NCBI RefSeq assembly: GCF_000381085.1
Contig: NZ_KB905900.1
Coordinates: 1-64,000, forward strand
Origin: Thiomicrorhabdus arctica DSM 13458
GTDB lineage: Bacteria; Pseudomonadota; Gammaproteobacteria; Thiomicrospirales; Thiomicrospiraceae
Direction: 5' to 3'
DNA length: 64,000 bases
Of this stretch, positions 16,770 to 23,711 are shown one piece after another. Every line of letters begins with the position of its first letter. Positions within the stretch are counted from its first letter, which is position 1. A model generated the notes under the pieces. That model was not told the origin of the DNA. It saw only the letters and a program-made list of their open reading frames with translations, and did not search any database. The position numbers and the translations under genes are program-made.

Positions 16770-17009
16770 TTGAGAAGCCTTTTGATATTGATAGCCCTTT
16801 GATTTCAACTATAGGCTTCCCGTTACTTTTTTGTCGTTCAACAAAAGAGTAACCAAAAAAATGAACCCTGCTGACGCCCTCTATTTCACTAAGCTTGTCC
16901 GCTGACATTCCCTAAACTCGCTTCGCTCAAACAAAGGGAGGGGGTTCTACGTTATTTCTGTATCTATCAAATGAGTAATAATGGGCTTTTAAAAACAACC
17001 ATGCCTGGT
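16770..17009 (-). repeat. Structured repeat, copy A
   Basis: Runs from TTGAGAAGCCT (16770) to a degenerate palindrome ACCATGCCTGGT (16998-17009), on the minus strand relative to copies C, D and E. It contains an AAGCCT/AGGCTT pairing near the left end. It also has the stem 16822-16834 with 16841-16853, and the conserved-loop hairpin with stem 16906-16913 / 16935-16942. Much of its left 170 bp matches copy B closely. Confidence 0.85.
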
Positions 17010-17068
17010 CACTTTACAGGCATTAAAAAAGCTATTGAACAATCAGCCTCTTTGCAAAATTAACTATG

Positions 17069-17074
17069 TATAAT
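17069..17074 (+). promoter_or_regulatory. Possible -10 box for HEPN transcript
   Basis: A perfect TATAAT preceded by TG. A start about seven bases further on would place the 5' end just ahead of the first hairpin of the structured leader. No good -35 box at 16-18 bp spacing was found. Confidence 0.4.
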
Positions 17075-17088
17075 CACCTAACTTAATG

Positions 17089-17230
17089 AATTTAGGGTTG
17101 GATTTTAGGACTTATAAATAAGTTTCAAATCCAGATTAAATAATAAACACTACCCTAATTTTTTAGATAAAACAGCATTATTAGACATGGTTTAAATACG
17201 TTTTATCTCAAATTTAGGAAGTCTAATAAT
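17089..17230 (+). ncRNA. Structured leader or ncRNA upstream of HEPN gene
   Basis: Several exact inverted repeats stack in 142 bases. TTAGGGT (92-98 of the 17,0xx block) pairs with ACCCTAA at 17152-17158. Inside it, TGGATTT (17099-17105) pairs with AAATCCA (17127-17133), and ACTTAT/ATAAGT (17110-17123) caps the helix. Next, AGATAAAAC (17165-17173) pairs with GTTTTATCT (17200-17208), and ATTATTAGAC (17177-17186) pairs with GTCTAATAAT (17221-17230). Those last two interleave as A-B-A'-B', the topology of a pseudoknot. No U-run follows, so it may be a 5' leader or a processed RNA. Confidence 0.5.
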
Positions 17231-17260
17231 AGTTAGCATTACAATTACACGAGAACTAAA

Positions 17261-18193
17261 ATGGCGATAGAGTCCCCCTTATTTCAAAGCGCAATGGAGC
17301 TTCTTGGACATTCGATTTCGCATTACAATGGAAAAAAAGAGCTTGATAGAAAGCTTTTAATATTGCATCTTGCAAATGCCGTTGAGTTAATTTTGAAAGA
17401 TTTGGTCTTAGATTCTGGTGAGTCTATATACAAAAATGCAAAAGAGACAATAACGATTCGGGGTTGCTTGAGTGCGCTTAAAGAAAAAAATGTCTCTCTT
17501 CCCTATTTGAATAAGATTGAACTTCTAATTGATGAGCGTAATGCGCTTCAGCATCGCTTTGGCTCACCCAATGAGCTAACTAGTATCTTTTACATGAATA
17601 TTTCACAAAAATTCTTTAAGTCGGTTTTAAAGCAGCATTACGGACAGGATTACGACGAAATAATTTCTCAGTTTGCAGACGAAATTGATTTAGTGACATT
17701 TAAGCTTGGTGCACCAGAAAACGATCAGGAGCTTGAAAAACTTCAAGAACTAGCAAAGATACACCCTTTGGGGGCATTACTTTCGGCTTGGTCGTATTTC
17801 GAAAAGAACACAGAAGAATTTGCTCAAGAAGTTGGCCTAGATTTTCGTCGTCGTCCATTTGTAGTGGAATTGCATTCTGGAAGGTTAGAAAGGTTTGGAA
17901 TAGATGTTCCTGATAAACTGCGAATGAAGGTCGATCAAATTCGAAAAATTAGAAATATGGCTGCGCATGGAAGGGCTGATCCAACCAAGGCTGATGTGAA
18001 AGCTACTATTAAGACAATAGAAGAATTTGAAAAATATTTAGAAGCTTTGGATAAAGATCCTATCAAAGAATGCGCCAAAATCGAAATGGAACGAGAAGAA
18101 GCTTTTAGGCGAGAAAGGATCAAAGCGAGACAAGAAGATGAAGAGACGGTAAGAAATACATTAGGTGATAGGACAACTCAGGATGAAGGTTAG
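17261..18193 (+). CDS. Protein with two HEPN-like motifs
   Basis: I know no name for this 310-residue protein. It has two regions resembling all-helical HEPN domains, each with an Rx4H-type motif: RNALQH at 93-98 and RNMAAH at 231-236, the latter followed by G as in many HEPN ribonucleases. The N-terminal half (KLLILHLANAVELILKDL) resembles HEPN-type helices; the C-terminal half resembles DUF4145-like HEPN proteins. The last 45 residues are highly charged and probably coiled. No antitoxin gene adjoins, but a structured leader lies directly upstream and an attC-like site 25 bp downstream. RNase activity is inferred only. Confidence 0.65.
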   Translation: MAIESPLFQSAMELLGHSISHYNGKKELDRKLLILHLANAVELILKDLVLDSGESIYKNAKETITIRGCLSALKEKNVSLPYLNKIELLIDERNALQHRFGSPNELTSIFYMNISQKFFKSVLKQHYGQDYDEIISQFADEIDLVTFKLGAPENDQELEKLQELAKIHPLGALLSAWSYFEKNTEEFAQEVGLDFRRRPFVVELHSGRLERFGIDVPDKLRMKVDQIRKIRNMAAHGRADPTKADVKATIKTIEEFEKYLEALDKDPIKECAKIEMEREEAFRRERIKARQEDEETVRNTLGDRTTQDEG

Positions 18194-18217
18194 CTTGTAT
18201 ATTGATGTCGCCACCAT

Positions 18218-18277
18218 GCTAACAAGCGCGTCAATCAGGACGCTCGCAAGCTCGCACCTATTACGCGGGCGTCAGGG
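18218..18277. other. attC-like recombination site
   Basis: A 60 bp segment starting 25 bp after the HEPN gene stop. It opens with GCTAAC (R''-like, RYYYAAC) and closes with GTCAGGG, one base from the GTTRRRY R' consensus. Inside, GCGCGT (18226-18231) faces ACGCGG (18263-18268), and AGG faces CCT. Length, ends and position after a gene fit an integron cassette site. The R' mutation and lack of a nearby integrase make it uncertain. Confidence 0.45.
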
Positions 18278-18338
18278 GTAAGAAACATGGCGTTTTTAAA
18301 AATAAATAGTACGGCATAGTAAGGACAAAGAATTAACC

Positions 18339-19208
18339 ATGGCAATACAATGTTTTCCGGTGGATCGGGTCGCGTCGATCAGTAAAGACGATTTCCTGCG
18401 TCAGTATAAGAAGTCGGCGAAGCCGCTCGTGATCGAGGACCTGACGCAGAACTGGCCGGCGAGGGAGAAGTGGTCGGTAGATTATTTCAAGTCCACAGTC
18501 GGTGATACTATGGTACCGTTGTATGATAGCGAGCGTTCTACCGACAAAAAGCACCAGCATGCGGCGGCCGTGACCATGCCCTTTAAGGAGTACATCAGTT
18601 TATTGCAGGCAGGTGAGAAGAACCTGCGAATGTTCTTTTTTAACCTGCTTGCTGCGACCCCGGTGCTACGCAAGGATTTTGAGTTTCCGGACATTGGCCT
18701 GAAACTGTTTAAGAAATTGCCCGTGTTATTCATGGCGGGTAAAGGCGCCAGGGTGCAGATGCACTTCGATATTGATATGGCGGATATTCTCCTCTGTCAT
18801 TTCGGCGGTAAAAAACGTGTCACGCTCGTCTCGCCCGAACAGACGCGCTACCTCTATCGTGTTCCCTTCTCCTTCAGCAGTCTGTTTGATATTGACTACG
18901 ACAAACCTAACTTTGAGAAATATCCTGCATTGAAAAATATCAGGGCTGAGGTGGTCGAACTTAATCACGGTGATGTCCTGTATATTCCTCCCGGTTACTG
19001 GCATTACGTCCAGTACGATGAGATCAGTTTCTCGATGTCGTTGCGCGCCTTCCCCAGACAACCACGCACCCTTGCCAGGATGTTATACAACTTGCTGATG
19101 ATCCGTCCTATCGAGGGCCTCATGCGCAGACTGGTTGGCCAGCCATGGAATGATCGCAATGAACGCCGGGCGATCAGCAAAACCCATCGGCGACTTGGCA
19201 TTACCTGA
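18339..19208 (+). CDS. Cupin-like (JmjC-type) Fe/2OG oxygenase family protein
   Basis: A 289-residue protein of the Cupin_8/JmjC-like type. The N-terminus has KPLVIEDLTQNWPA, common at the start of this family. The iron site HxD is HFD at 142-144, and the distal histidine is in IPPGYWHYV at about 222; GGKKRVTLVSPEQ lies between. The substrate is unknown; relatives hydroxylate proteins or tRNA or modify small molecules. The gene is much richer in G+C than its neighbours, with codons such as CTG, GCC and CGC favoured, so recent transfer is likely. It follows the attC-like site by about 60 bp. Confidence 0.82.
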   Translation: MAIQCFPVDRVASISKDDFLRQYKKSAKPLVIEDLTQNWPAREKWSVDYFKSTVGDTMVPLYDSERSTDKKHQHAAAVTMPFKEYISLLQAGEKNLRMFFFNLLAATPVLRKDFEFPDIGLKLFKKLPVLFMAGKGARVQMHFDIDMADILLCHFGGKKRVTLVSPEQTRYLYRVPFSFSSLFDIDYDKPNFEKYPALKNIRAEVVELNHGDVLYIPPGYWHYVQYDEISFSMSLRAFPRQPRTLARMLYNLLMIRPIEGLMRRLVGQPWNDRNERRAISKTHRRLGIT

Positions 19209-19212
19209 ATGA

Positions 19213-19262
19213 AAATAAGGAGACGCTACCCTTTTATTCTGCTCAACCTAGTTGAGAAGCCT
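19213..19262. repeat. Left member of a 50 bp direct repeat
   Basis: GACGCTACCCTTTTA and AACCTAGTTGAGAA recur in the same order and spacing at 23303-23352. The two copies bracket the C-D-F repeats, SDR, oxidoreductase and LysR genes. Confidence 0.75.
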
Positions 19263-19545
19263 TTTTGATATTGTTAGACCTTTAATTTCAACTATAGGCT
19301 TCCCGTCACTTTATTTGCTTGTCCAAATAAAGTAACCAAACAAAAGACACCCTGCTGACGCCCTCTATTTCACTAAGCTTGTCCGCTGACATTCCCTAAA
19401 CTCGCTTCGCTCAAACACAGGGAGTGTTTAAACGCGTCCTTCACTAACTGAAATGACGATTGCTTACAAAAGGGGAGGTCTCCACGTGAGTTTGTCTATT
19501 CTGATTTAGGTCGTTGTAGTGCTTTTGGATTTGACCAGGCCTGGT
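19252..19545 (-). repeat. Structured repeat, copy B
   Basis: Begins TTGAGAAGCCT and ends at the exact palindrome 19534-19545. The stem ACTTTATTTG (19308-19317) / CAAATAAAGT (19324-19333) and the conserved-loop hairpin (stem 19390-19397 / 19419-19426) are present. Much of it is the reverse complement of copy E, 4 kb away. Confidence 0.9.
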
Positions 19546-19818
19546 CATTTTAAATTTAGAGTTTATCTGAAAACTTAAACTTCACACCGAAGCCCCCTTT
19601 GAAAGCAATTGTGGAAAGCTCTTAACGAAATGAACGTTGAAAATTCCCAGGTGTTTGAGCGCCAGCGAGTTCTGGGATTTCAGTGAATGAGTTTAGGGAA
19701 TGCCAATTGATTGAGCGGGGTGCCCTTTTGTGGTGACTATTTTGGGCACGCAAAATAGTCACGTGAAGCTAAATAATAAAATAGATTATGAATTACGGAA
19801 ATCAGTAAGGCTTCTCAA
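19534..19818 (+). repeat. Structured repeat, copy C
   Basis: Starts at the palindrome shared with copy B and ends AGGCTTCTCAA. Hairpins: AAATTCCCAG (19641-19650) with CTGGGATTT (19672-19680) around the conserved loop, and a perfect 12 bp stem GTGACTATTTTG (19733-19744) / CAAAATAGTCAC (19751-19762). Confidence 0.92.
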
Positions 19819-19845
19819 CTTATCGAGAAGCCTATTTTAGAACCT

Positions 19846-20128
19846 ACCAGGCCTGATAAGTTTGAATTTTGAGTTTATCTGAACAATAAAACCCCACGCC
19901 GAAGTCCCCTTTGAAAGCAATTGTGCAAAGCTCTTAACGAAGCGAACGATTAAAAATTCCAGGTGTTTGAGCGGAGCGAGTTCTGGAATTTCAGTGAACG
20001 AGTTTAGAGATTGCCAATTGATTGAGCGGGGTGCCCTTTTGTGGTGACTATTTTGGGCACACAAAATAGTCACGGGAAGCCTTTAAGAAAATAACTCAAG
20101 AAATATCGAATTTAGAAAGGCTTCTCAA
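19846..20128 (+). repeat. Structured repeat, copy D
   Basis: A tandem direct repeat of copy C with many substitutions. It starts at a degenerate palindrome (ACCAGGCCTGAT) and ends AGGCTTCTCAA. The conserved-loop hairpin has the perfect stem AAATTCCAG (19954-19962) / CTGGAATTT (19983-19991); the 12 bp stem is at 20044-20055 / 20062-20073. Confidence 0.92.
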
Positions 20129-20170
20129 TAGTCATCAATAACTCTTTCAAGCAATCTCAAAGTACAATCC

Positions 20171-20222
20171 ACCAGGCCTGGTCAGTTAGAATTTAGAGTT
20201 TATCTGAACAATAAAACCCAAT
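20171..20222 (+). repeat. Structured repeat, truncated copy F
   Basis: An exact palindrome (20171-20182) followed by about 40 bp matching the start of copies C and D (TTTAGAGTTTATCTGAACAA), then stopping. The 3' end of the SDR gene lies inside it. Confidence 0.85.
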
Positions 20223-21104
20223 GGGGTCTTCGTTACGCGTATATCTCGGATTACATGTCTCGAAAGTACTGGCAAGCCCTGTCAGTTCCAAACTTTTTTG
20301 CCATAGCATGTCCGCTAATTCCTCGTCATAAGACAATGTGGATGACCTCTCCATCTGCATTTGATTGAAGTATTTACCCGATACACCTTGAACTTCTGGC
20401 GAAGTACCCAAGAATATCTGTGCTTTCGCTCCTTGCTCAGGGGGGAGTCGGCCCATCGGGAAAGTCCTATTTGAATTCCTATCTTCAACACTAAATTTAG
20501 TCTCAACCACACCGGGGTGTACTGCATTGATGGTGGTGCTTGTCCCCTGTAAATATTTGGCCAATTTGTAGGTGAAAAGCAGGTTGGCGAGCTTAGAATC
20601 ACAGTAAGCGGAGAAGCCGTTATAATCGTGTGTATGCATAAGATTATTTACGTCTACTTTGCCGCTGAAATGAAGATCCGATGCAACGTTTATTATTCTT
20701 GATGAAGGCGTATTTGTTAACATATCCAGCAATAAGTGAGTCGCTAAAAAGTAGCCCAAGTGATTCACAGCAAATGTAAGTTCAATGCCTGCGTCTGTCT
20801 CAATTCTATTGTGACTCATCATTCCAGCATTATTAACAAGAATATCTAAACGACTGTATTTTCGTTTAATTTCGTCCGTAAACGCCACTATAGAAGACTG
20901 CGAAGAAAAGTCACATAGCAGCAGGTCGACGTTCATATTCTTTGAATAATGAATCACCTCTTGCAATGCAGCTTTGCCTCGTGCCTCATCCCTTGCAACC
21001 AAAATAGTGGTTGCCCCCATTTTCGCCAGCTCTTTCGCCGTCACTAATCCAATTCCGGATGTGCTTCCGGTGACTATGCATATTTTGTTATCTAGAGTGT
21101 TCAT
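20193..21104 (-). CDS. Short-chain dehydrogenase/reductase
   Basis: NAD(P)-dependent oxidoreductase of the SDR superfamily, closest in style to retinol-dehydrogenase-like enzymes. TGSTSGIG at 12-19 binds the cofactor, NNAG is near 91, and the catalytic YCDSK (YxxxK) is near 168. GGAGG lies seven bases before the ATG. The last 10 or so residues (PIGFYCSDKL) are encoded inside repeat copy F, so the native C-terminus may have been replaced when the repeat joined. It is in line with the oxidoreductase gene upstream on the same strand. Substrate unknown. Confidence 0.88.
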   Translation of the reverse strand: MNTLDNKICIVTGSTSGIGLVTAKELAKMGATTILVARDEARGKAALQEVIHYSKNMNVDLLLCDFSSQSSIVAFTDEIKRKYSRLDILVNNAGMMSHNRIETDAGIELTFAVNHLGYFLATHLLLDMLTNTPSSRIINVASDLHFSGKVDVNNLMHTHDYNGFSAYCDSKLANLLFTYKLAKYLQGTSTTINAVHPGVVETKFSVEDRNSNRTFPMGRLPPEQGAKAQIFLGTSPEVQGVSGKYFNQMQMERSSTLSYDEELADMLWQKSLELTGLASTFETCNPRYTRNEDPIGFYCSDKL

Positions 21105-21277
21105 TTTCGCCTCCGTTTGAGCGGGGTATTTACTGAAAAAGAGAATAACTAAAAGAGAAATGAATCGCTTTTACACGTATAGCTCTCAAAGGATTCACCC
21201 ATTCTCCAAGACTGTATTCCCCGCACCCACAGCGGTACTGAGACCGAGCCCCCCTTAAAAAGGAGTATTTAATGCTC

Positions 21278-22228
21278 TTATCGTATCTGGAGAACTATTT
21301 TGCCCCGAGTGTGGCTAGACTCGCTTTTTTTGTGTGCTTTAACGACGTCATCTAGCTGATAAACACTGTCTATTTCAACCTTTAGACTCCCTGAATCAAT
21401 CAAGCTGGCGATTTCCGATAGATGACCTGAATTCGGTTGAACAAAACAAAAATTGGCCTTGACGTCATGCTTGATCGCAAGCTCGTCGTTTGGGATCTCC
21501 GCAATTGAAACAAGGTTGCCACCTTTCTTTAAAGTCGACCAGGATTTTTCTAAAACGTCACCTCCCATCGTATCGAATATAAGATCCAAACCGTTCAATT
21601 TAGAAAAATCTTCCTGCATGTAGTCGATCACTTCATCTGCACCAAGGCTCTTCAAAAAATCAATATTTTTAGATGATGAGGTTGTGTAAACGGTTGCGCC
21701 TGCCTGTTTAGCAAGTTGAATAGCAGCATTTCCAACACCCCCTGCTCCAGCATGAATCAGTACTCGGTCGCCTGTTTTAATTTTGCCAATCTCGTTCAAG
21801 GCTTGCCATGCCGTCAGGGTGACTAATGGTACCGCTGCAGATTCCTGCCAGTTCAGCGTTTTAGGCTTGGCAGCAATTTCATCTGCTGACACTGTAATAT
21901 ACTCAGCGTATGTGCCATTTTTTGAAAGGTTTGGGTGAGAATAGACGGCATCGCCAACAGACCATTGCTTAACATTTTTTCCAACAGAGACAACTTGTCC
22001 CGCGAAATCCCAACCTAACGTTAAAGGCAGTCTGTGGGGTAAGAGTTCTGCCAAATATCCTTCGCGAACTTTCCAGTCAATGGGATTGACTCCAGCCGCA
22101 TGAATTTTTACCAAAACCTCATCTTCAGCAGGCACCGGTACTTTAGTATTTGTCAGTTGCAGTTGTTCTGCGCCTCCGTAGCTGTGAATTTGTACGGCTC
22201 TCATCTGCTCTTGATTGACATGATTCAT
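21278..22228 (-). CDS. NADP-dependent quinone oxidoreductase-like protein (MDR superfamily)
   Basis: Zinc-free medium-chain dehydrogenase/reductase of 316 residues. It has the N-terminal GVNPIDWKVREG block, LGWDFAGQVVSVG near 75, the cofactor motif HAGAGGVGNAAIQLAKQAGA near 156 and the family C-terminus HTRGKIVLQI. AGGAG precedes the ATG. A LysR-family gene starts 140 bp away on the opposite strand, the usual layout for a regulator controlling its neighbour. Together with the SDR gene it may form a small redox or detoxification unit. Confidence 0.9.
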   Translation of the reverse strand: MNHVNQEQMRAVQIHSYGGAEQLQLTNTKVPVPAEDEVLVKIHAAGVNPIDWKVREGYLAELLPHRLPLTLGWDFAGQVVSVGKNVKQWSVGDAVYSHPNLSKNGTYAEYITVSADEIAAKPKTLNWQESAAVPLVTLTAWQALNEIGKIKTGDRVLIHAGAGGVGNAAIQLAKQAGATVYTTSSSKNIDFLKSLGADEVIDYMQEDFSKLNGLDLIFDTMGGDVLEKSWSTLKKGGNLVSIAEIPNDELAIKHDVKANFCFVQPNSGHLSEIASLIDSGSLKVEIDSVYQLDDVVKAHKKSESSHTRGKIVLQIR

Positions 22229-22368
22229 ATCGTTCTCCTATTAGCGCCTTAAGTAGCGATTTGATTGATTTACCTTATGGGCTATAAGATTAACGAAGGA
22301 AGTCCCCCTTGACTAGATAGGGCAAACGCACTACATTGTTTCCATTCTCTCAACAATAGGCCTCTAGA

Positions 22369-23280
22369 ATGAACAACCAACGATTGGATATCTTGCCTGC
22401 TCTGGTTCTTTTTGCGCGAATTGTTCAATATGGAAGTTTGACTGCCGCTGCTCAAAATTCTGGTTTGAGTCGTTCTGCCGTGAGTAAACAGCTGAGTGCA
22501 TTGGAAGAAAAACTTGGCGCTCGACTTCTTCAACGCAGTACTCGAAGTTTCAAACTAACGGCCGCTGGCAAACAAATATTAGGCGAGGCCAGGCGCGCAC
22601 AGGAGGCTCTAGAGAATGTCGAAATGTTGTCTGAAGAGTTGGAAGGCCATGTACGTGGGAATCTAACGGTTTCTTGCTCTGCGGGTATTGGACGTGTTCA
22701 TTTGGTTCCTTTACTAAAGCAATTTCAAGAACTCTACCCGCAAGTACATGTACAGCTCTTACTTGAAGATAGAATGGTCAATTTAATTGATGAGCAAATT
22801 GATGTCGCAATTCGTGTAGGCCATCTTCCTGATTCCTCATTAATCGGATTGCGTCTTGGGGAGATGAGTTGGGTTGTGTGCGCAAGCCCTGAATACTTGA
22901 AAAAAAATGGGACACCTAAAACCCCTACTGATTTACTTCAACACGATTGCCTTTATTATCAAAATAGTCAAAGTTCGTTCAATATTTGGTCGTTTCAGGG
23001 ACCTAAAGGAGATGAGAGGGTTTCAATAAATGGTTCTCTCTCTATCAATGATTCTACGGTATTGGTCCAAGTCGCTGAAGAGGGTCGTGGCATTGTGTGG
23101 ATAGACAAACATTCACTCGGTGACGCGCTCGAAAAAGGGCGACTTGTTTCGATACTGGAAGAATATAACCTTGGACTCGGTTACCCAATTTATTTGCTCT
23201 ATCCCGCCCGACAACACTTAGCTGCAAAAACAAGAGCATTTGTTGATTTTTTAAGCGTTCAATTTTCACCTAGGGTCTGA
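22369..23280 (+). CDS. LysR-family transcriptional regulator
   Basis: 303-residue DNA-binding regulator. The N-terminal winged helix-turn-helix is typical (AAQNSGLSRSAVSKQLSALEEKLGARLLQRSTRSF, about residues 27-61). A substrate-binding domain follows, with GHLPDSSLIGLRLGEMSWVVCASPEYL in the style of the CrgA-like subgroup. It is divergent from the quinone oxidoreductase gene and probably controls it; the inducer is unknown. A strong hairpin follows the stop codon by 27 bp. Confidence 0.92.
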   Translation: MNNQRLDILPALVLFARIVQYGSLTAAAQNSGLSRSAVSKQLSALEEKLGARLLQRSTRSFKLTAAGKQILGEARRAQEALENVEMLSEELEGHVRGNLTVSCSAGIGRVHLVPLLKQFQELYPQVHVQLLLEDRMVNLIDEQIDVAIRVGHLPDSSLIGLRLGEMSWVVCASPEYLKKNGTPKTPTDLLQHDCLYYQNSQSSFNIWSFQGPKGDERVSINGSLSINDSTVLVQVAEEGRGIVWIDKHSLGDALEKGRLVSILEEYNLGLGYPIYLLYPARQHLAAKTRAFVDFLSVQFSPRV

Positions 23281-23302
23281 CACCACTAAATTTAATGTAA
23301 AA

Positions 23303-23352
23303 CACTGTAAAAGGGTGACGCTACCCTTTTACACTACATTAACCTAGTTGAG
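23303..23352. repeat. Right member of 50 bp direct repeat
   Basis: Matches 19213-19262. It includes GACGCTACCCTTTTA and AACCTAGTTGAGAA, then passes into a short stretch ending at the degenerate palindrome at 23381. Confidence 0.75.
23307..23332 (+). terminator. Hairpin after the LysR gene
   Basis: Perfect stem GTAAAAGGGT (23307-23316) / ACCCTTTTAC (23323-23332) with loop GACGCT. The trailing U-run is only partial. The loop and right arm recur after the cupin gene. Confidence 0.5.
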
Positions 23353-23380
23353 AATCCTATCTCCTTGGACTTTTAAAGCG

Positions 23381-23711
23381 ACCAGGCCTGCTATGTCCTG
23401 CGGCTTTAAAATATTATGTGAGCGCAAGGTCAAATCCAAAAGCACTACATAAACCGAATCAAGAATAGACAAACTAACGTGGAGACCACCCCTTTTGTAA
23501 GCAATCGTCATTTCAGTTAGCGTAGGTGGCGTTAAAAGATTTCATTGTCTGAGTGAAGCGAGTTATGAAATCTTAGCCAACAAGCTTAGTGAAATAGAGG
23601 GCGTCAGCAGGGTGTCTTTTGTTTGGTTACTTTATTTGGACAAGCAAATAAAGTGACGAGAAGCCTATATGCAATCAATTTAGAAATACAAAGTGAAGAA
23701 AGGCTTCTCAA
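23381..23711 (+). repeat. Structured repeat, copy E
   Basis: Starts at a degenerate palindrome (ACCAGGCCTGCT) and ends AGGCTTCTCAA. Conserved-loop hairpin: perfect stem AAGATTTCAT (23536-23545) / ATGAAATCTT (23565-23574). Second stem: ACTTTATTTG (23629-23638) / CAAATAAAGT (23645-23654). Its head carries an extra segment of about 35 bp, also found near 48.2 kb. Confidence 0.9.

Follow-up and report, generated by a model that had tools for sequence, protein, structure and literature searches.

Our analysis indicates that the repeats at 16,770-23,711 of the window (the whole 64,000-nucleotide stretch of Thiomicrorhabdus arctica DSM 13458 analysed here) represent a worn non-autonomous DNA transposon of MITE-like type. 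Its sole cargo would be a conserved folded DNA module with a predicted triplex at hairpin P2, and it would depend on a trans-acting transposase; we assign this reading a probability of roughly 0.7. In the proposed arrangement, each arm would run from a terminal repeat through the head hairpin P1 (GAAGCC...GGCTTC) and the hairpin P2, with the loop CTTGYC, to a mirror-image purine segment, a CACCC segment, a branched stem P3/P4 ending in AAGGGG, and a tail. The purine segment would fold back onto P2 as a third strand, forming an intrastrand triplex in the order 5'-pyrimidine/purine/purine-3'. Such arms would occur singly or as two inverted arms joined tail to tail. A transposase supplied in trans would cut at the terminal repeats, and the element would insert into AT-rich sites with a 7-bp duplication, often a few bases beyond a stop codon.

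The covariance model R1, which was built on the hairpin of the family and used to place the copies, matched the window at 16821-16870 (+), 19304-19354 (+), 19716-19763 (-), 20027-20074 (-) and 23608-23658 (-) only. These are the five copies A to E at the places given in the initial annotation, and 16 copies were found in the genome. BLAST search revealed 23 matches in the genome with E-values down to 1e-119, the self-match of copy B aside. Copies B and E share ~85% identity, as do C and D, whereas C and D share only ~69% with B, in agreement with the annotated divergence of C and D from A, B and E under a retained layout. This common layout is far above chance, given the 23 BLAST matches and the fact that 19 of the 29 pairs show compensatory changes. 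As A and B lie on the plus strand and C, D and E on the minus strand, the 12-bp palindrome ACCAGGCCTGGT sits at the tail (3' of AAGGGG), and the head of each arm is TTGAGAAGCC. The palindrome, annotated as the start of the repeats, is indeed present at the tails of B/C, D and E, but it marks the tail end and is not peculiar to the repeats. The copies in the window are degraded relics, in part arranged in tandem, and show no clean terminal inverted repeats (TIRs) or target site duplications (TSDs); E, for instance, is the remnant of a pair. The tail fragment beyond copy D provides the final codons of an ORF ending at 20193.

Table 1. Repeat arms, fragments and palindromes in the window.
Feature	Position	Strand	Details
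Copy A, decayed single B-type arm	16770-17009	+	head TTGAGAAGCC at 16770; hairpin P2 16821-16870; degenerate palindrome 16998
Copy B, B-type arm	19252-19545	+	head TTGAGAAGCC through palindrome; tail to tail with C
B, predicted intrastrand triplex, whole	19305-19346	+	
B, predicted triplex stem A and loop	19309-19317; 19318-19323	+	stem CTTTATTTG; loop CTTGTC
B, predicted triplex stems B and C	19324-19332; 19337-19346	+	CAAATAAAG; linker TAAC; CAAACAAAAG
B, CACCC segment and branched stem P3/P4	19348-19476	+	AAGGGG at end
12-bp palindrome ACCAGGCCTGGT	19534-19545	none	genome-wide motif in its own right; does not define the element
Copy C, D-type arm	19534-19818	-	palindrome in common with B
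B+C, one paired-arm element, tail to tail	19252-19818		inverted ends AGTTGAGAAGCC/GGCTTCTCAACT
Stray head fragment TCGAGAAGCC	19823-19832	+	between C and D
Copy D, D-type arm	19846-20128	-	fold z-score -3.88
D-type arm tail fragment	20171-20219	-	92% over 49 bp
Copy E, B-type arm with partner-end relic	23348-23711	-	arm 23428-23711; relic TTGAGAATCC 23348-23357; palindrome at 23381
Further ACCAGGCCTGGT	137, 2933, 15392, 20171, 23754, 29888, 37384, 38140, 42466, 49637, 51733, 58495, 62933		

Signs of mobility come from the sibling species, which possess 24 copies with both 32-bp TIRs, in G016 and G010 composed of TGTAAAAGCTTAGATTTAATCAGACAGTACAG and its inverse. A 7-bp TSD agreeing in at least six positions flanks 16 of these 24 copies (shuffled control: mean 1.9, maximum 8); ten of the duplications are exact, and nearly all differ from each other in sequence. 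The element has thus moved recently enough in close relatives for exact TSDs to remain. A joined-flank search for empty sites covered six loci. Filled and empty orthologous sites occur: at a small-gene locus the element follows the same gene in G009, G010, G015 and G016 and is absent in G014, G022 and G024, and an ABC-gene locus is filled in the same four genomes and empty in G022, G024 and G042. The units measure 387-468 bp, within the size range of MITEs, and contain no ORF, consistent with the annotated lack of any protein. The core was also considered as coding sequence, and this was rejected as the peptides read through it in GC-rich relatives match no Pfam family. In the sibling species, therefore, the element is a MITE. 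Among the options left open by the initial annotation, the non-autonomous mobile element is borne out by the TIRs, TSDs and filled and empty sites, and the recombination substrate is not established.

Outside the sibling species, the same core is bounded by different terminal repeats and frequently consists of two arms in inverted orientation. The complete genome of a distant bacterium (G373) has at least 23 copies, which are paired-arm elements with ends that, where read, form TIRs, at best without a mismatch over 26 bp (TTGATACCGGACTGGCAAGTTTGTGT). When distant named loci were searched automatically for TIRs and TSDs, only two cases were convincing and little else emerged, with a 10-bp duplication at L110 and one matching at 11 of 12 bp at L143. 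As different taxa have different TIRs, the identity of transposase and TIR is not what unites the family, which suggests that the core of a MITE can outlive its terminal repeats. We infer that a trans-acting transposase mobilises the element; neither the TIR sites of G000, G010 and G016 nor viral contigs yielded an autonomous partner bearing these TIRs. The end sequence that a partner transposase gene in the genus would be expected to match begins with TGTAAAAGCTTAGATTTAATC.

Further analysis of the folded core revealed that 95.7% of its cells are paired, with 178 compensatory (double-changed) cells compared to 53 in shuffled and 3-35 in slid controls. For P2 alone, 73 double-changed cells were counted family-wide, against 18.4. 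Under a strict parse, the segment 3' of P2 mirrors the purine arm of this hairpin in 28 of 28 asymmetric cases and is never its direct repeat; as the copies share ancestry, these cases correspond to perhaps nine independent changes by our estimate. A looser scan over all loci gave 60 mirror, 6 direct and 34 tied cases. Judged from sequence, this mirror pattern is the one that an intrastrand DNA triplex of class II (purine motif) would leave, although the motif is not clearly visible in copy A, and a predicted third-strand C opposite T-A pairs forms no classical triad. G-U pairs make up only 0.8% of the fold (8/1008) and 0.09% of P2 (1/1157), compared to 6.4% (23/360) in tRNAs from the same data. 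From the mirror-image third segment and the near-absence of G-U, selection probably acts on a DNA structure rather than an RNA. The triplex may form in cells, and the structure may benefit the element itself, for example in single-stranded or supercoiled DNA, instead of encoding an RNA.

An alternative is that the repeats are a structured non-coding RNA or a processed 3' UTR element, spread incidentally by transposition, whose fold acts as RNA. The strongly conserved fold, on which the annotated option of a structured RNA family partly holds up, is in keeping with this, as are compensatory changes in all main helices except P1, the conserved P2 loop CTTGYC and the several loci that sit directly after stop codons. 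Moreover, P2 has 25 C-A mismatches, more than its G-U pairs, as expected if the RNA were the opposite strand; since these mismatches would be G-U there, they leave room for an antisense RNA. Yet the listed strand is almost devoid of G-U pairs, the third segment is mirrored and not complementary, the arms occur in both orientations and also as fragments, and their presence is patchy. Besides, Rfam 15 returned no match for the window at gathering and permissive thresholds, nor for six loci with distant relatives at gathering threshold. Altogether, we regard an RNA function as unlikely.

Two other explanations, both centred on recombination or transposition of a different kind, appear less probable still. 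The repeats might be cassettes recombining at the 12-bp palindrome, similar to neisserial dRS3/RS mosaics, with dRS3/NIME repeats as the comparison system for palindrome-bounded cassettes, or to integron cassettes with a symmetric site. Palindromes do mark the tails of B/C, D and E and, in several species, are also found 24-40 bp beyond the heads, and the difference between G015 and G022 is a stretch with palindromes at its bounds. However, one genome of the genus (G019) lacks the element despite 718 palindromes, and five (G003, G005, G020, G021 and G044) carry elements although they contain only 0-25 palindromes; palindromes also occur within genes and terminators, and the G016 copies carry TIRs and TSDs at palindrome-free ends. 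These observations make the cassette system very improbable. Recombination at the palindrome, considered as half-elements end at palindromes, was rejected as a general rule on the same dissociation across the genus. REPIN/BIME-like repeats moved by a RAYT (Y1 tyrosine transposase) that recognises single-strand hairpins are scarcely credible, despite the hairpin-rich, extragenic repeats in inverted pairs, the REP-like hairpins AAAAGGGTGACGCTACCCTTTT close to the repeats at 19214 and 23309, and one Y1_Tnp match in the genome. Single-strand Y1 transposition makes no target duplications or long TIRs of the kind seen here, and eight element-bearing genomes of the genus (G002, G003, G005, G018, G020, G021, G024 and G041) lack any Y1_Tnp, so that the annotated suggestion of a REP-associated tyrosine transposase is not supported.

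The palindrome ACCAGGCCTGGT is a motif independent of the element. It is clade-specific and has 333 exact copies genome-wide; in a 464-kb sample, 65 exact copies outnumber 34 with one mismatch, and the next palindrome of the same composition has one copy. Its over-representation, the dominance of intact copies and its presence in genes and terminators resemble a DNA-uptake sequence, and the motif, now separated from the element, might be a palindromic one. We know of no uptake sequence of this kind, those known to us not being perfect palindromes. Similar to the neisserial uptake sequences, which are short, number in the hundreds and often lie in terminator stems (PMC2397512), ACCAGGCCTGGT is short, abundant and often found in terminator stems, but it differs from them and from dRS3/NIME in being a perfect palindrome independent of elements.

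Several known systems are close to the MITE-like element. Coxiella QMITE2 is a bacterial MITE of 150-190 bp with a GTAG REP core and direct repeats of 7-9 bp, given as 7-11 bp in the abstract (PMC5896051). They both have TIRs, direct repeats and no protein, insert at gene 3' ends, occur in full-size and truncated versions and are orphans with no named autonomous partner; compared to QMITE2, the present element has a branched core of ~230 nt with the P2 triplex motif, often two inverted arms, and a range over Gamma- and Betaproteobacteria. TMECO (Box C) forms a triplex in vitro and has many intergenic copies in Proteobacteria; it is G/C-rich, and a link to mobile elements was not found in E. 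coli (PMC4666352). P2 shares its order of 5'-pyrimidine stem, loop, purine stem, short linker and second purine stem-3', but it is A/T-rich, its third strand covaries in mirror fashion, and it forms the core of elements that carry TIRs and TSDs. TMECO-like motifs adjoin P2 in several taxa, with 13 in 102 kb close to the core versus 2 in 456 kb. REPs of 20-40 bp are tied to Y1 transposases (PMC2817692, PMC3116915); REP/BIME/REPIN repeats are likewise extragenic, palindromic and in inverted pairs, but the present element shows TIR/TSD transposition and no Y1_Tnp link.

A role for triple helices in cells has so far been argued mostly from oligonucleotides and motif counts, whereas here many natural variants obey the mirror rule predicted by a third strand. 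The repeats thus offer a natural test of whether DNA triple helices matter in living bacteria. We tentatively suggest, at somewhat less than even odds, a proteobacteria-wide class of mobile elements around a conserved intrastrand triplex that persisted through several exchanges of the terminal repeats and hence of the transposase; mirror covariation would then be comparative evidence of a triplex under selection in living bacteria.

Known repeats were searched for through Rfam and through text searches with the palindrome and with strings from the core, that of P2 among them, which gave nothing relevant, and a broad literature search on structured repeats found no earlier description. Viral contigs matched neither P2 nor the TIRs, and plasmids gave two partial matches, both weak. 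The core was found in 23 of 32 genomes of the genus, clearly at odds with an absence from related genomes, which the initial annotation had named as a refuting result. It is spread patchily over Gamma- and Betaproteobacteria, occurring in 42 of 184 sampled gammaproteobacterial genomes. A copy of the type of this genus in L174, labelled as a Kiritimatiellae MAG, was treated as probable contamination.

The five copies A to E, which the initial annotation had placed in the window as one repeat family, were confirmed at their positions; R1, a covariance model of the central hairpin P2, gave convincing window matches at these copies only and 16 matches in the whole T. arctica genome. Used as BLAST queries, copies B and D found 23 and 20 matches, respectively, in the 2.55-Mb genome. 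The copies form two sub-types sharing ~69% identity, which bears out the earlier remark that C and D diverge in sequence from A, B and E yet keep the layout. Each arm, the element unit from head to tail, starts with TTGAGAAGCC; the copies had been described as palindrome-started, and this layout holds except that the palindrome sits at the arm tail. Copies B and C constitute one tail-to-tail pair with a common palindrome, and copy E is a pair minus most of one arm. No clean terminal inverted repeat (TIR) or target site duplication (TSD) was found around the window copies, which are older than those of sibling species; the neighbouring fragments suggest decay and tandem rearrangement. One such fragment supplies the last codons and stop of a short-chain dehydrogenase-like ORF, and at another locus of the same genome (L047) an entire paired-arm element and its flank are duplicated in tandem.

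Coordinates of repeat copies and neighbouring features (window positions, except for L047)
Feature	Position	Strand	Remark
Copy A	16770-17009	+	B-type
Copy B	19252-19545	+	B-type
Copy C	19534-19818	-	D-type
Copy D	19846-20128	-	D-type
Copy E	23348-23711	-	B-type
Common palindrome	19534-19545		B and C
Fragments	19823-19832, 20171-20219
Dehydrogenase-like ORF	20193-21104		end supplied by element, 20193-20219
Hairpin AAAAGGGTGACGCTACCCTTTTA	19214-19236		REP-like, adjoins B
Hairpin AAAAGGGTGACGCTACCCTTTTA	23308-23331		REP-like, adjoins E
Palindrome ACCAGGCCTGGT	137, 2933, 15392, 19534, 20171, 23754, 29888, 37384, 38140, 42466, 49637, 51733, 58495, 62933
c-di-GMP-I riboswitch aptamer RF01051	34467-34556	-	44.7 bits
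c-di-GMP-I riboswitch aptamer RF01051	35677-35764	-	55.6 bits
Duplicated element, L047	1326-1975, 1976-2625

In sibling species, the family is a mobile unit that duplicates its target. Genome G016 holds it largely as single D-type units, and 24 copies from G016 and G010 possess both TIRs (left TGTAAAAGCTTAGATTTAATCAGACAGTACAG, right its imperfect inverse) over 387-468 bp. TSDs matching at ≥6/7 bp flank 16 of these 24 copies, ten of them exactly (5000 shuffles averaged 1.9 and never exceeded 8); the exact TSDs are nearly all distinct (e.g., GTTAAAA, CTTTATA, TCTAAGC and GGTTAAG). The terminal repeat begins within ~15 bp of a stop codon at loci L278, L279, L282, L283, L284, L288 and L292. Orthologous sites are filled in some genomes and empty in others: a small-gene locus carries the element downstream in G009, G010, G015 and G016 and lacks it in G014, G022 and G024; an ABC-gene locus is filled in the same four genomes and empty in G022, G024 and G042. 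Independent insertions at a favoured site may account for some of the filled loci. The element works like a MITE, a non-autonomous DNA transposon, and the MITE features tested in the sibling species were found. Among described elements, QMITE2 of Coxiella comes closest, with direct repeats of 7-9 bp, a location at gene 3′ ends and a REP core (PMC5896051). No known Rfam family matched, and no prior description was found in the open-access literature; the family may already bear a different name.

The covariance-model search of the genome and its relatives, proposed in the initial annotation, recovered further copies in the genus, class and phylum. R1-positive genomes number 23 of 32 in the genus, 42 of 184 in a sample whose class, from the named hits, would be Gammaproteobacteria, and 33 of 249 drawn over the phylum, ten of which belong to one family of another class; each carries from 1 to 30 or more matches. 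A degenerate hairpin pattern matched at least 118 stretches in GTDB genomes, the matches listed including Methylomonas, Dyella, Rhodanobacter, Salinisphaera, Thioalkalivibrio, Sulfuricella, Methylophilus and Methylotenera, among others. The core is near-absent in plasmids and viral contigs. In other taxa, the same core lies between different terminal repeats: CAATGTCATTAAGTTAAGG (locus L110, 10-bp duplication), AGGGAAAACGCATTAAAA (L143, duplication of 11/12 bp), CATATAAGCGACGTGA..GGGATTTCGCGCACC (genome G162) and TTGATACCGGACTGGCAAGTTTGTGT, which encloses paired arms (G373). Arms paired in inverted orientation turn up repeatedly, in Sulfuricella, Salinisphaera, G104, G174 and G373. A contig labelled Kiritimatiellae MAG GH20 (L174) bears a copy of this genus' type and is probably misbinned.

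The fold is conserved, with five helices in the consensus of 37 arms from the genus. In these arms, 95.7% of cells are paired, and double-changed cells number 178, compared to 53 after shuffling and 3-35 with slid partners; helix P1 is near-invariant, and pairing there is neither supported nor refuted. Across taxa, P2 has 73 double-changed cells versus 18.4, in an alignment with some left arms misplaced. Folded as single sequences, B is modestly stable (z -1.98) and D clearly so (z -3.88).

Two features suggest that this fold probably acts as DNA and not as RNA. G-U pairs are scarce, at 8/1008 in the genus helices and 1/1157 in P2 across taxa, compared to 23/360 in tRNAs of the same loci; C-A mismatches are more frequent (25 in P2) and correspond to G-U on the opposite strand, so that the scarcity by itself does not decide the matter. 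The mirror rule is the stronger argument for DNA. A purine segment directly after P2 echoes the purine arm of the hairpin (e.g., CAAAGAAAAGTAAC followed by CAAAAGAAA), and under a strict parse of asymmetric arms it is the mirror image in 28 cases and a direct copy in 0. A looser scan including non-element contexts gave 60 mirror, 6 direct and 34 ties, and the search pattern behind the distant copies is neutral between the two orders. Examples from unrelated lineages are AAAAAGA/AGAAAAA, AATAGAAA/AAAGACAA, AAAAGAGAA/AAGAGAAAA, AAAAGAAG/GAAGAAAA and AAAGAAAAA/AAAAAGAAA. The window pairs of B and E (CAAATAAAG/CAAACAAAAG) and of C and D (CAAAATAG/CACAAAAG) are mirror-like, with C facing T, and copy A is too degenerate for this reading. 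Mirror-symmetric purine tracts in the order pyrimidine-purine-purine are the requirement of a purine-motif intrastrand triplex. The published motif TMECO, which forms a triplex in vitro, has the same layout as P2 plus the third segment (PMC4666352), and in other taxa TMECO-like motifs are enriched beside the core, with 13 in 102 kb compared to 2 in 456 kb from the same loci.

We infer that a trans-acting transposase, differing by host, would recognise the element ends, and that the folded DNA module would be retained for a benefit to the element. It might, for example, extrude during replication or under supercoiling, or make insertions just behind genes tolerable. The genomes examined yielded no autonomous partner. 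Mobilisation by REP-associated tyrosine transposases (RAYTs) is not supported: across the genus, these do not track the element.

The 12-bp palindrome ACCAGGCCTGGT is a different thing from the element, and the two are dissociated across the genus: R1 matches and palindromes number 16 and 1 in G003 and 5 and 0 in G044, and G019, with 718 palindromes, lacks the element. The T. arctica genome contains 333 exact copies, or 499 allowing ≤1 mismatch (control motif, 0). In a 464-kb sample, ACCAGGCCTGGT occurs 65 times exactly, with 34 one-mismatch copies in all, compared to ≤1 copy for each other palindrome of the same composition; its density is 0.75/kb outside versus 0.05/kb inside predicted genes, and its consensus ACCAGGCCTGGTCRNTTT often lies within the stem of a terminator-like hairpin. 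Exact copies number 84-718 in 10 genomes of the genus and 0-38 in the remaining 22, and in the palindrome-rich clade many, not all, pairs have it between the arms. DNA-uptake sequences, established for Neisseria and Haemophilus, are distributed in a similar way, and ACCAGGCCTGGT is a candidate palindromic uptake sequence; we know of no palindromic one. Hairpins like AAAAGGGTGACGCTACCCTTTTA also flank elements in sibling genomes, and another hairpin, CCTATGCTCACAA...GGGCATRCC, recurs near elements and palindromes in the genus (L060, L062, L064 and L083).
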